33,134 nt of DNA, taken from positions 1 to 33,134 of the forward strand of contig JAHFJM010000002.1 in assembly GCA_023245935.1 (NCBI GenBank). Direction: 5' to 3'. Below, one piece after another: positions 1,850-5,778 of the stretch. The notes below the pieces were generated by a model that was not told the origin of the DNA, searched no databases, and saw nothing but the letters and a program-made list of their open reading frames with translations. A program made the translations under genes and the position numbers. This stretch comes from Candidatus Peribacteria bacterium. Its GTDB lineage: Bacteria > Patescibacteriota > Gracilibacteria > Peribacterales > Peribacteraceae. Position 1 is the first letter of the stretch. The number at the start of each line of letters is the position of its first letter.

Positions 1850-4366
1850 CTAGACAACAAGGCTCACCAACTTTCCAGGCACATAAATCTCTTTCTTGAT
1901 GCCGGCTTCGATGTACTTTTTCACATTCTCATTCGCCTTCGCAAGCGAGAGAATGTCGTCTTTCGTCGCATCTTTCGAAACAACGATATCGCCGCGGACT
2001 TTTCCGTTGACCTGAATGACGACGGTCATCGTCGATTCGACGATAAGTGCTGGATCGTATTTCGGCCATGACTGTTCAATGGCGAAACCCTTACCTCCAA
2101 GCACCGACCAGAGCTCTTCAGCAAGATGCGGAGCGAGAGGAGCAAGAAGAAGCGCGACGGTCTTGCCGAGATCAAGAGACAGAGCTTCCTCTTTCTCGAT
2201 CAGGTTCAGGAATTCCATGAGCGCGCTGATTGCCGTATTGAACCGAAGCCCCTCGATATCCTCGCCGACTTTCTTGATCGTTTTATGGAGTGCAGCAGTA
2301 ATCGCAGGCTTATCTGCCGAAACTTTTTTGTCCGACTTCTCTGTTATCGCCCGATGCATGCGCTTCACGAATCGAACGACTCCGTTGATCCCAAGATCGC
2401 TCCAATCCCCTCCGGCTTCAAACGGACCCATGAACATCAAGTACATCCTGAAGACGTCGCTGCCGTGTTCCTTCACGAATGCATCGGGACTCACGACATT
2501 GCCTTTGCTCTTGCTCATCTTCGCGCCTTTATTGGTGATCAATCCCTGGTGCACGAGCTTTCGGAACGGCTCACTGTGAGACACGTATCCGAAATCCTTC
2601 AGTGCCATCATCACGAATCGTGCGTAGATCAGGTGCATGCATGCATGCTCGGGACCGCCGATGTAGAGCGAGACAGGCATCCATTTCTTTTCGATCGAAG
2701 AATCAACCAGTGATTTTCCTCCTTCTGCCAAATATCTCAGATAGTAGAAACTACTGCACACGAACGTATCCATCGTGTCATATTCCGGTGTCCAGCCCTT
2801 GCCGAAAATTTTCTCTGTGCGTGACTTGAATTCTTTGGAATGCCTGAGCGGAGATTCCCCCGTCGGCTTGAACTCGACATCCGTCGGCAAAAGCCACGGG
2901 AGATGTTCTTCGGGCACCGGATGCGGCTGACCCTTCGGATCGTACACAATCGGAATCGGTGCACCCCAGTACCGCTGACGCGAGACGAGCCAGTCGCGGA
3001 GGCGATAATTGATGATGGCTTTGCCCTTTTTATTTTTCTCAAGCCATTGAACCATCTTCTTCTTTGCCTGCTCAACATCTAGCCCATTTAAAAAGTCTGA
3101 ATTTATAATTTGTCCCGGTCCTCTCCAGCACTTTTTACCCTGCAAAACTAATTGATAGTCATCTTCATCACGTCGTTTGAATGCTGCATCTAGATCGCCA
3201 CCATCTCGAAGCACCACGGCAAAACCGCGATGAATATAGGAATTAAAATTCGCAACATGTTTATCTGGTCTAATAACTGGTTTTATGAGAGGTCTCAAAT
3301 CCTCTCTTCTTTCAGCAAAATCAAAATCTCTTTCGTCATGAGAAGGAACTGCCATAATCGCTCCCTTTCCGTATGACATCAAAACATATTCAGCCACGTA
3401 AATTGGCATTTTATCACCTGTGACCGGATTAATTGCGCAAGCACCAGTATCCTCACCATCAAAGAAGCTGACATCTGTTTTTCTTTGAAGTTCTGTTTTA
3501 TGTAAAACACGACCTAGAAATGCTGAAATATCTTTTTGCTTCTCTTTCGTTGTAATTTTTTTTACCAAAGGATGTTCGGGGGCAACAACTATAAATGTTG
3601 CTCCAAAAATCGTATCTTGTCTCGTTGTAAAAATGGTTAACTTCTCGTTCAAGCCAACCAAATCGAAATCTATTTCAGCCCCCTCACTGCGACCAATCCA
3701 TTCCTGCTGCATGTACTTTGTTTTTTCCGGCCAATCAATCTCCGCAAGTCCATCCAGAAGTTTCTGGGAATACCTCGTGATGCTCCAGTACCACTGCTCA
3801 AGCGGCTTCTGGATGACTTCCGTATCACATCGCTCACATCTCCCCTCTTTCACCTGCTCATTTGCAAGCACCGTTTGACAGCTCGGACAGAAATTCACGT
3901 TCCCTTTCTTCTTGTACGCGAGCTTGTGCTTGAACATTTCGAGAAACAACCACTGCGTGAATCGGTAGTAACTCGGATCCGTCGTATTCACCGTCTTGTC
4001 CCAGTCGTACATGCAACCGATTTTTTTGAGCTGCGTGATCATCGTCTCGACGTTCTTCTTCGTGGACTCCGCAGGATGCACGCCGGTTTTGATCGCATAG
4101 TTCTCAGCTGGAAGTCCGAACGCATCGAAACCCATCGGCGAGAACACATCGTAGCCTTGCATTTTCTTGAATCTCGCGATGCTGTCCGCCGGCGCATAGT
4201 TGTACCAATGCCCGATGTGGAGTTTGTCCCCGCTCGGATAGGGAAACATCACGAGGGAGTAGAAAGGGTTTTTGGCTTTCTGCAGATCGGTCTTGAACAC
4301 ACCCGCCTCTTCCCACTTCTTCTGCCATGTGGCTTCCGCCTTGGATGGATCGTAGGGTTCAAGCAT
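1850..4366 (-). CDS. leuS: Leucyl-tRNA synthetase
   Basis: This 838-aa class Ia synthetase charges tRNA-Leu with leucine in the cytoplasm. The order of motifs is standard: PYPSGDKLHIGHWYNY (HIGH motif, about residues 43-58), zinc-ribbon cysteines (CPSCQ and CERC), the CP1 editing domain with TTRQDTIFGATF and AVPSHDERDFDF, the KMSKSKGN loop, an anticodon-binding helical region, and the C-terminal domain with VQVNGKVRGDI. The length is normal. The part covering roughly residues 225-428 (about 3085-3690) is strikingly AT-rich, near 30-35% G+C in sampled lines against 57-62% on either side. That stretch corresponds to the editing domain. The reading frame is intact. ATG at 4364-4366 is preceded by a promoter-like sequence ending 8 bases upstream, with no Shine-Dalgarno sequence. 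Confidence 0.98.
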   Translation of the reverse strand: MLEPYDPSKAEATWQKKWEEAGVFKTDLQKAKNPFYSLVMFPYPSGDKLHIGHWYNYAPADSIARFKKMQGYDVFSPMGFDAFGLPAENYAIKTGVHPAESTKKNVETMITQLKKIGCMYDWDKTVNTTDPSYYRFTQWLFLEMFKHKLAYKKKGNVNFCPSCQTVLANEQVKEGRCERCDTEVIQKPLEQWYWSITRYSQKLLDGLAEIDWPEKTKYMQQEWIGRSEGAEIDFDLVGLNEKLTIFTTRQDTIFGATFIVVAPEHPLVKKITTKEKQKDISAFLGRVLHKTELQRKTDVSFFDGEDTGACAINPVTGDKMPIYVAEYVLMSYGKGAIMAVPSHDERDFDFAERREDLRPLIKPVIRPDKHVANFNSYIHRGFAVVLRDGGDLDAAFKRRDEDDYQLVLQGKKCWRGPGQIINSDFLNGLDVEQAKKKMVQWLEKNKKGKAIINYRLRDWLVSRQRYWGAPIPIVYDPKGQPHPVPEEHLPWLLPTDVEFKPTGESPLRHSKEFKSRTEKIFGKGWTPEYDTMDTFVCSSFYYLRYLAEGGKSLVDSSIEKKWMPVSLYIGGPEHACMHLIYARFVMMALKDFGYVSHSEPFRKLVHQGLITNKGAKMSKSKGNVVSPDAFVKEHGSDVFRMYLMFMGPFEAGGDWSDLGINGVVRFVKRMHRAITEKSDKKVSADKPAITAALHKTIKKVGEDIEGLRFNTAISALMEFLNLIEKEEALSLDLGKTVALLLAPLAPHLAEELWSVLGGKGFAIEQSWPKYDPALIVESTMTVVIQVNGKVRGDIVVSKDATKDDILSLAKANENVKKYIEAGIKKEIYVPGKLVSLVV

Positions 4367-4374
4367 CGGGATTC

Positions 4375-4403
4375 AGCCTACCCACAACGCGTTGTTTCGG
4401 CAA
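4375..4403 (-). promoter_or_regulatory. leuS promoter
   Basis: On the minus strand TTGCCG (4398-4403) is followed after 17 bases by TAGGCT (4375-4380). The leuS ATG begins 8 bases after it, so the mRNA would have little or no leader. The -10 match is only moderate. Confidence 0.4.
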
Positions 4404-4439
4404 CAGCACGGTGAAATCACATGCTTTCGCGAATGGAAG

Positions 4440-4468
4440 TTGACGGCGAAGAACTCCTCGACAAGAAT
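4440..4468 (+). promoter_or_regulatory. Promoter of the 259-aa unknown gene
   Basis: TTGACG (4440-4445), a 17-base spacer and AAGAAT (4463-4468) lie 8 bases before the ATG at 4477. This fits the leaderless arrangement seen at other genes here. Confidence 0.5.
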
Positions 4469-4476
4469 TGCCTGCC

Positions 4477-5256
4477 ATGAGCACTCTCGACGACCTTCGC
4501 TCCATGAAAGATTCTCCGTACGGAGTGCAATACGTTCAGGGAAGATTCTCTGCGGAAACAAGCGTGAACTTCTTCCAATCGGAACGAGAGTGGCTGAGCA
4601 TGCGTGACATCTGTGATGACCGTCTGAAGAAATATCAGATTCCGGATCAGAGTCAGTCTTCAAATTTTTTTCACCGTCCCGTTCTGCATCAACTGCGTCA
4701 GACGTATGCGAGTACGTTTGAAAAAAGACCGGATACGATTGAGGAGTGCCGAAGCGCGATCGCAAGTCTGATGATCACGATCAACACCATTGCATCTCTG
4801 GAGAGAGTTGTGCCGTTTGCATCGACACCGATCGATATGAAAAGTGTCAACTTGAGGGTGTTAAAACCCCAAGACAAACATCTGACAGTCGGAACGCCCT
4901 CGATGGTCGGTCTCGAACAATCGACCATCGCGGAATGGAACAAGCGTCGTAGTGCCACCGGTCTGTCGGAACTCGACCCATGGTCTCTCAAAACCTTCGG
5001 CAGCGTGCTCGCGCGGGATAACGTGGTGGCAGGCAGAATCCATCCCAACGGGGAAATGCGCACGCTGGGTCACTACTTCATGCGAACTGCGGACGATGAG
5101 AAGCAACGTGGATACGAACTGATCGACTTTGCAGCGGAGACTGGCACTGGAATCAACGACGCACTGATCATCCTCATACTGAATGAAATGAAAGCATCGA
5201 ATAGACTGCGTCTCACGAGCGTACTCGAAGACACGCATCCGCACGTAGAAATCTGA
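4477..5256 (+). CDS. Hypothetical protein, 259 aa
   Basis: I cannot assign this protein to a family. It appears soluble and cytoplasmic, with no signal peptide or membrane segment. The middle part contains a long helical stretch (EECRSAIASLMITINTIASLE), and the C-terminal half contains FGSVLARDNVVAGRIHPNG and a helical segment ending INDALIILILNEM. The frame is open from a TTG at 4468, but a well-formed promoter ends at 4468, so the ATG at 4477 (MSTLDDLRS) is the better start. It diverges from leuS. After its stop comes a 141-bp gap with a possible hairpin (CTTCC 5266-5270 with GGAAG 5294-5298, and CTGC 5278-5281 with GCAG 5288-5291). Confidence 0.65.
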   Translation: MSTLDDLRSMKDSPYGVQYVQGRFSAETSVNFFQSEREWLSMRDICDDRLKKYQIPDQSQSSNFFHRPVLHQLRQTYASTFEKRPDTIEECRSAIASLMITINTIASLERVVPFASTPIDMKSVNLRVLKPQDKHLTVGTPSMVGLEQSTIAEWNKRRSATGLSELDPWSLKTFGSVLARDNVVAGRIHPNGEMRTLGHYFMRTADDEKQRGYELIDFAAETGTGINDALIILILNEMKASNRLRLTSVLEDTHPHVEI

Positions 5257-5397
5257 AAAAGCTCACTTCCGATCACCCTGCTTCGGTGCAGAAGGAAGCC
5301 ATCAATAAGCTTCTAGGTTACTTCGAGTACCAAATGATCTTGCATGGACGACCGATTTTGAGAATACTGCGACACTTTTATTTTTTCTTGCCACCCT

Positions 5398-5742
5398 ATG
5401 AACTCACACAATGAAACTCCTGTCCCACCGGTTGAAGCCGTACTGAAGGCTAAAGAAATTGCAGAGAGTGCAAGTGCTGCAGCCGTAGATCAAGGTCACC
5501 ATTTCAATCGCGATAAGGCACTGACACACTTCGCCAGAGAGCTTCAAACTCTTGCGCCTCATTTTCCTGACAATCAGTGGCTGCGAGAGAAAGCTCTGAC
5601 ACTCCCTGGAGCGATTGATTCCGGCCGCGTACCGTCTGTCATTTTTGATGAACTGAAGTTGGGTTGCCAGGATATCTTCAGCAGATTTCAGCATCTTCTT
5701 CACAAAGAGTCGGCAAACACTGCGGAAGCAAACGCGGCGTAA
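5398..5742 (+). CDS. Hypothetical protein, 114 aa
   Basis: A small, probably soluble and helical protein with no family I recognise. The N-terminus is Ala/Glu-rich (EAVLKAKEIAESASAAAVDQG), followed by DKALTHFARELQTLAPHFPDNQWLREKAL. The C-terminus is low in complexity (NTAEANAA). A weak promoter (TTGAGA 5358-5363, TATTTT 5379-5384) precedes the ATG by 13 bases, with no Shine-Dalgarno sequence. A terminator-like hairpin follows at 5755-5778, and der begins right after it, so the gene is probably transcribed alone. Confidence 0.6.
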   Translation: MNSHNETPVPPVEAVLKAKEIAESASAAAVDQGHHFNRDKALTHFARELQTLAPHFPDNQWLREKALTLPGAIDSGRVPSVIFDELKLGCQDIFSRFQHLLHKESANTAEANAA

Positions 5743-5754
5743 GAATGATGAAGG

Positions 5755-5778
5755 AAACCTCTGAAGCGCAGGAGGTTT
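5755..5778 (+). terminator. Probable intrinsic terminator between the 114-aa gene and der
   Basis: AAACCTC (5755-5761) pairs perfectly with GAGGTTT (5772-5778) around a 10-base loop, and the 3' arm ends in a short T run. It lies just before the der promoter. The stem is only 7 bp and moderately AT-rich. Confidence 0.5.

Follow-up and report, generated by a model that had tools for sequence, protein, structure and literature searches.

Aminoacyl-tRNA synthetases are usually discussed as whole genes moving between genomes. Genes in which homologous recombination has replaced a single domain can be recognised by part trees that disagree, by sharp edges placed in conserved flanks, by an intact reading frame and by a foreign base composition, and for inteins such replacement is driven by homing endonucleases. 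Canonical bacterial leucyl-tRNA synthetases (LeuRS), such as those of E. coli and T. thermophilus, have an active CP1 editing domain. D345 is critical for deacylation and its substitution abolishes editing in E. coli LeuRS (PMC4932531), and the T252R substitution abolishes post-transfer editing (PMC3834818). LeuRS with a degenerate or absent CP1 have also been described, in human mitochondria and in Mycoplasma mobile (PMC3834818). The leuS gene analysed here resembles the single-domain mosaics in all of the above respects, but differs from them in that a housekeeping synthetase has had one and the same domain swapped over and over at the same edges. A literature search, made mostly without subscription journals, returned no report of LeuRS editing in CPR bacteria, of CP1 exchange or of an HUH domain in a synthetase, which is weak evidence of absence.

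The window, that is, the whole stretch of 33,134 nucleotides that was analysed, sits in a 199-kb contig (C4) of a Peribacteraceae-type CPR/Patescibacteria genome (G000; 1.22 Mb in 8 contigs, 99% complete and 0.13% contaminated). Its leuS is a single open frame that is intact throughout (Table 1), as the first-pass annotation had read it, and the product scores 928.6 bits against TIGR00396 (leuS_bact, cut-off 548.4), which identifies it as a bacterial LeuRS. Pfam places tRNA-synt_1, tRNA-synt_1_2 and Anticodon_1 on the protein, with tRNA-synt_1 split in two stretches and the editing domain PF13603 (residues 222-375, E 1e-55) forming an insertion that separates the two halves of the catalytic domain. 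Domain order, fold and pocket residues are like those of the E. coli and T. thermophilus enzymes, from which the window LeuRS differs by Q for P250, K for T332, an extra ~30-40 aa in the C-side part of CP1, and a CP1 that is foreign relative to its own body. The extra segment has a similar length in two relatives (G025 and G267) and is shorter in a third (G033); model confidence is low there, and CP1 residues 361-410, which align poorly, are left out of the claims made here. Directly beside leuS, about 1.4 kb of the window (4367-5775, including an ORF at 4468-5256) finds no match at the nucleotide level around leuS in the two congeners, G001 and G002, and matching resumes at about 5776.

Table 1. 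Features of the window leuS, with the LeuRS of relatives that carry a Y1_Tnp domain (positions are those of the window)
Feature	Residues	Position	Strand	Basis
leuS, leucyl-tRNA synthetase, 838 aa, ATG start		1850..4366	-	ORF, TIGR00396, Pfam
CP1 editing-domain cassette, replaced	~226-453	3008..3691	-	two-breakpoint segmentation against G001/G002, blastn against G002, conflicting trees
AT-rich core, GC 38.8%, GC3 ~27%		3085..3690	-	base composition
Threonine-rich editing motif TTRQDT, numbered as E. coli T247-T252	247-252	3611..3628	-	alignment to E. coli LeuRS from PDB, census by CP1 type
HDERD, includes counterpart of E. coli D345	343-347	3326..3340	-	E. coli alignment, census
N-side conserved anchor WPEKTKYMQQEWIGRSEG, N-side breakpoint inside	212-229	3680..3733	-	congener comparison, segmentation
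C-side conserved anchor NYRLRDWLVSRQRYWGAPI, C-side breakpoint at anchor	453-471	2954..3010	-	congener comparison, segmentation
Extra CP1 segment, ~30-40 aa	~361-410	3137..3286	-	alignment, structure model
Y1_Tnp-bearing LeuRS of relatives: L130 (G032), L136 (G022), L142 (G011), L152 (G004), L215 (G136), L220 (G183), L157 (G040), L290 (G147), L291 (G137)

A block in the middle of leuS is set apart by its base composition; the comparison covered the window and the leuS orthologues. No other 606-nt segment of the window is as poor in G+C as the one at this block (38.1%): the minimum outside it is 40.3%, and the window averages 51.8% (sd 3.6). The abrupt step noticed at first sight is real, although the contrast had been exaggerated: it is about 39% against about 51%-53% in the flanks, and not 30%-35% against 57%-62%. 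The accompanying shift to A/T-ending codons was read correctly. GC3 is 69% over residues 1-224, falls to 29%, 28% and 26% over residues 225-290, 291-350 and 351-428, and then returns to 63% and 60%, so that residues 225-428 stand at 27.5% and the remainder of the gene at 64% (Fisher p 4e-20). If the whole foreign block is taken (residues ~226-453), GC3 is 30% against 65% in the other parts of leuS (Fisher p 5e-19 for residues 227-452). The difference between CP1 and body GC3 is -0.35 in the window, which ranks 1 of 56 family leuS genes (median -0.07), and the congeners have no such step, their CP1 GC3 (about 53%-73%) being like that of their own bodies.

Identity and phylogeny separate the same two parts of the gene. 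The window LeuRS body is 85%-86% identical to those of the congeners and CP1 only 28%-30%; against G025, the body parts are 72%, 81% and 58% identical and the CP1 core 59%-63%. The body tree groups the window with its congeners (support 99) and then with G027 and G285 (97), and all of these relatives carry the CP1 that we call type B. The CP1 tree, which has 145 rows, 190 columns and long branches, places the window with G025, G033 and G267 (99) within the canonical family clade, on a long branch (0.83), and the congeners in the type-B clade (100), 1.66 changes per column apart from the window group. AU tests on a 27-row set rejected both the placement of CP1 with the congeners (dlnL 120, p 5e-67) and the placement of the body with the CP1 kin (dlnL 539, p 1e-64). 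The gene is thus a mosaic, with significantly different trees for its parts and sharp breakpoints that have native sequence on either side. The first-pass annotation had proposed that recombination replaced CP1 and left the catalytic and anticodon parts native, and had named identical trees together with a composition step shared by relatives as the outcome that would speak against it; the trees differ, neither congener has the step, and both parts of the proposal are supported. Transfer of the whole gene is excluded, as the body groups with its own genus in the LeuRS and ValRS trees.

The edges can be placed closely. Per-codon identity to the congeners drops at residues 226-230 and recovers at 453-454, and in blastn of leuS against G002 positions 1850-3007 and 3715-4355 match at 78%-81% with no match over 3008-3714. 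The replaced segment (~3008-3691) is longer than its AT-rich core. The N-side limit first drawn from composition was correct, while the C-side limit fell about 77 nt short of the one that the congener comparison gives, at 3008. Since the genes on both sides of leuS are colinear with G002, and those on the right side also with G001, the locus is orthologous to that of the congeners.

Our data support the view that the swap in the window is one event of a recurrent exchange, in which CP1 acts as a repeatedly swapped cassette of at least five types. Four of these have a TT[RT] motif and the fifth, type B, has the divergent motif D-S-V-P-Q-T. The 56 full family LeuRS divide by motif into 22 of type B, 14 of A2, 12 of A1, 6 of A3 and 2 of A4; these labels are short motifs that agree with the CP1 clades, except that A3-like motifs fall in two clades. 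Eight genera (g1, g13, g17, g24, g28, g32, g58, and g60) hold mixed types. On the LeuRS body tree the distribution of the types is close to random: at least 31 type changes are counted on the 76-row tree, a minimum on an uncertain tree, and the 56 family rows need 25, compared with a mean of 29.2 over 300 shuffles of the labels, 8 of which gave a count as low. On a ValRS tree built independently from 29 genomes the types require 13 changes, and at least eight swaps lie between sister rows or groups with joint support of 97-100. In 13 of the 15 pairs that differ in type, the edges fall at residues 226-232 and 451-457, each in a well-conserved stretch on one side of CP1; the exceptions have N edges at 272 (G025/G227) and 123 (G034/G263). 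LeuRS CP1 identity is 25%-39% in pairs of unlike type and 60%-92% in pairs of like type, whereas the ValRS editing domain of the same genome pairs is 75%-98% identical, matching its body (87%-92% for the window genome and its congeners), and the IleRS of the window genome aligns with that of G001 in one piece, at 83% over the full length. Because ValRS and IleRS of these genomes are not swapped, the exchange is a trait of the LeuRS CP1, and a general mosaicism of these synthetases is excluded.

Two side observations concern other members of these families. The A2 CP1 of Peribacteraceae (TTRPDTNFGAT) groups with the CP1 of two Nitrospirota MAGs (L057 and L077) at 99, hinting at a possible exchange across phyla. 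The IleRS of the source genome (L252, G000 contig C4:175446-179807) is, at 1454 aa, unusually long; part of it (residues ~737-911) is matched by a distinct protein of ~240 aa whose gene lies elsewhere in the same genomes.

Because the block is foreign, the part trees conflict, the locus is colinear and the CP1 of ValRS is unswapped, we hold with high confidence that leuS carries a true replacement of its CP1 editing domain in a native body. An assembly or binning chimera, in which the leuS ends of the species itself were joined to the CP1 of another cell, would find some favour in the fragmentary assembly of 8 contigs and in edges that lie in well-conserved flanks, places where assemblers can switch. 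Such a chimera is very unlikely indeed, because the two joins lie 680 nt from each other within a 199-kb contig and are in frame at the domain edges and because the same edges recur in more than ten other, independently assembled genome pairs; the completeness and low contamination of the genome also speak against it, as does the fact that the relatives share no long run of identical nucleotides at the joins. Divergence in place, by relaxed or altered selection and a local AT bias acting on the resident CP1, could draw on the long terminal branch of the window CP1. However, both overall and in its key residues the block falls with G025, G033, and G267 rather than with the congeners, the AU test rejects its placement with the congeners, and such divergence would need to recreate the canonical TTR.DT pocket together with its indel pattern from type B; we give it practically no credence, and a drift to AT in place is excluded by the trees and motifs. 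It could also be argued that leuS was anciently present in two or more paralogous copies of differing CP1 type, whose bodies were homogenised by gene conversion and which were lost lineage by lineage. The types are old and widespread in the class, and a sorting of ancient copies would scatter them, but each family genome searched has one strong leuS locus, five types with ~25 changes demand many long-lived copies, and it would be left unexplained why the window block has a foreign base composition, which makes this scenario very improbable.

A further proposal concerns the driver and not the swap itself. In several relatives, a Y1_Tnp domain (PF01797, IS200-like HUH, ~170 aa) is inserted into CP1 near residue 240, between conserved linkers and with the frame kept. 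Pfam shows it in eight LeuRS (G032, G022, G011, G136, G183, G040, G147, and G137), and related inserts are found in G004, G295, G296, and G028, with that of G004 (L152) recognised by sequence similarity only and that of G028 split over two contigs. A CP1-lodged endonuclease of this kind could nick CP1-encoding DNA and drive replacement of the whole domain in a homing-like manner. The presence of the insert at one site in CP1 of types A1, A2, A3, and B would fit this, as would the 43%-63% identity among the family copies, their retained H-x-H and Y..NP motifs, and their distance from the best stand-alone proteins in the family (33%-34% identical). Some relatives therefore hold a nuclease-like HUH domain inside the swapped cassette, as in the intein and homing endonuclease systems; unlike in those systems, neither splicing nor homing is known for the HUH domain. 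Y1_Tnp was not found in the window LeuRS by Pfam, nor elsewhere in the window genome, and most of the exchanged CP1s have no insert. Moreover, the nuclease activity of the insert is only predicted, and ordinary recombination accounts for the edges. A homing-like driver is thinkable but unproven, and we consider it unlikely.

Other domains are also lodged in LeuRS of relatives. A Ser_hydrolase domain (PF06821, alpha/beta hydrolase) of ~170 aa or more lies immediately ahead of CP1, near residue 207-210 in the numbering of the window protein, in four proteins (L284, L285, L293, and L294, from G035, G051, G090, and G094). A NUDIX domain occurs in the C-side part of CP1 in the LeuRS of G221 (L292), and another in the C-terminal half of the LeuRS frame of G041 (L154).

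To return to the replacement by recombination, a donor with a near-identical CP1 was not found among 288 class genomes, where the best CP1 match is 55% identical. Since the closest CP1 reaches only 55%-59%, the donor is unsampled, and the source would be an AT-rich relative of the same broad lineage; the GC3 of the block (~30%) resembles that of AT-rich family members such as G021. Homologous recombination through two anchors would be the simplest mechanism. About 680 nt from this relative would have entered leuS, with crossovers at the two conserved stretches that flank CP1 (WPEKTK..MQ..WIGRSEG and YRLRDWL.SRQRYWG). The incoming CP1 would have displaced a resident type-B CP1, the kind still carried by both congeners and the nearest genera, and the catalytic core, anticodon-binding and C-terminal parts stayed native. 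By parsimony, the direction in the window lineage would most simply be from B to A1, because G001, G002, G027, G285, G026, and G022 are all of type B, with the nearest ones grouped in the B tree. It is possible that the DNA was taken up through natural transformation and integrated by RecA-type recombination. Natural competence is reported in CPR members of another class (PMC10633639) and gene exchange among CPR genomes has been described (PMC12455944). The source genome has a ComEC homologue (contig C6:338347-339099), but present competence cannot be claimed, because the matched stretch holds one in-frame TGA.

The CP1 now present in the window has the residues of an editing-competent domain. 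Counterparts of E. coli T247, T248, R249, D251, T252, and D345 (window D347) are all present, and an AlphaFold model of the domain (pLDDT 86.9) finds LeuRS editing domains as its best structure matches. The swap would change proofreading, and judging from these residues it most simply restored a canonical pocket, and with it perhaps canonical post-transfer editing, in a lineage whose congeners carry a non-canonical CP1 type. The conserved YGTG of CP1 is YGKG in the window (residue 334, window 3365-3367), which is unique among 26 A1 rows. As GKG replaces GTG near the pocket, full editing activity of the window CP1 is not certain.

Type B, in turn, departs from the threonine-rich motif, as do the LeuRS with degenerate or absent CP1 of human mitochondria and M. 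mobile (PMC3834818). In all 27 type-B rows, E. coli T247-T248-R249-P250-D251-T252 is replaced by D-S/T-V/I-P-Q-T; A334 is deleted, V338-P339 is C-S, and D342 and D345 are retained. Unlike the degenerate domains, however, type B keeps its pocket residues (D247, P250, Q251, T252, H341, and D345 in 27 of 27 rows). Because 44 CP1 positions are invariant across the type, it is constrained rather than decaying, and the pocket positions, invariant or nearly so, give no sign of a loss of constraint. Loss of editing cannot be assumed, because D345 and T252 are retained. An AlphaFold model of a type-B CP1 (pLDDT 86.5) likewise has LeuRS editing-domain structures as its best matches. The type is patchy, occurring in 22 of 288 class genomes by exact motif; six CPR genomes from other classes have it too, in each case within a LeuRS-like frame.

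Tentatively, we suggest that in this part of the CPR the CP1 of LeuRS may be an allelic cassette, with at least five divergent types, one of them with a rebuilt pocket, that recombine among species at fixed edges. They would be kept diverse by a selecting agent, for example inhibitors of the editing site or a host-dependent need for proofreading, or spread by a CP1-lodged nuclease domain. This is a plausible idea that we would not yet rely on.

Benzoxaborole drugs target the LeuRS editing site, at which type B presents an altered yet conserved pocket. Within this essential enzyme, the single module that determines how often errors occur at leucine codons is swapped far more often than the remainder of the protein, at constant edges and only in LeuRS among the three large synthetases compared. 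The outcome is natural pairs of near-identical LeuRS that differ only in their editing domain, and such pairs allow a direct test of what proofreading is worth to reduced, host-dependent bacteria.
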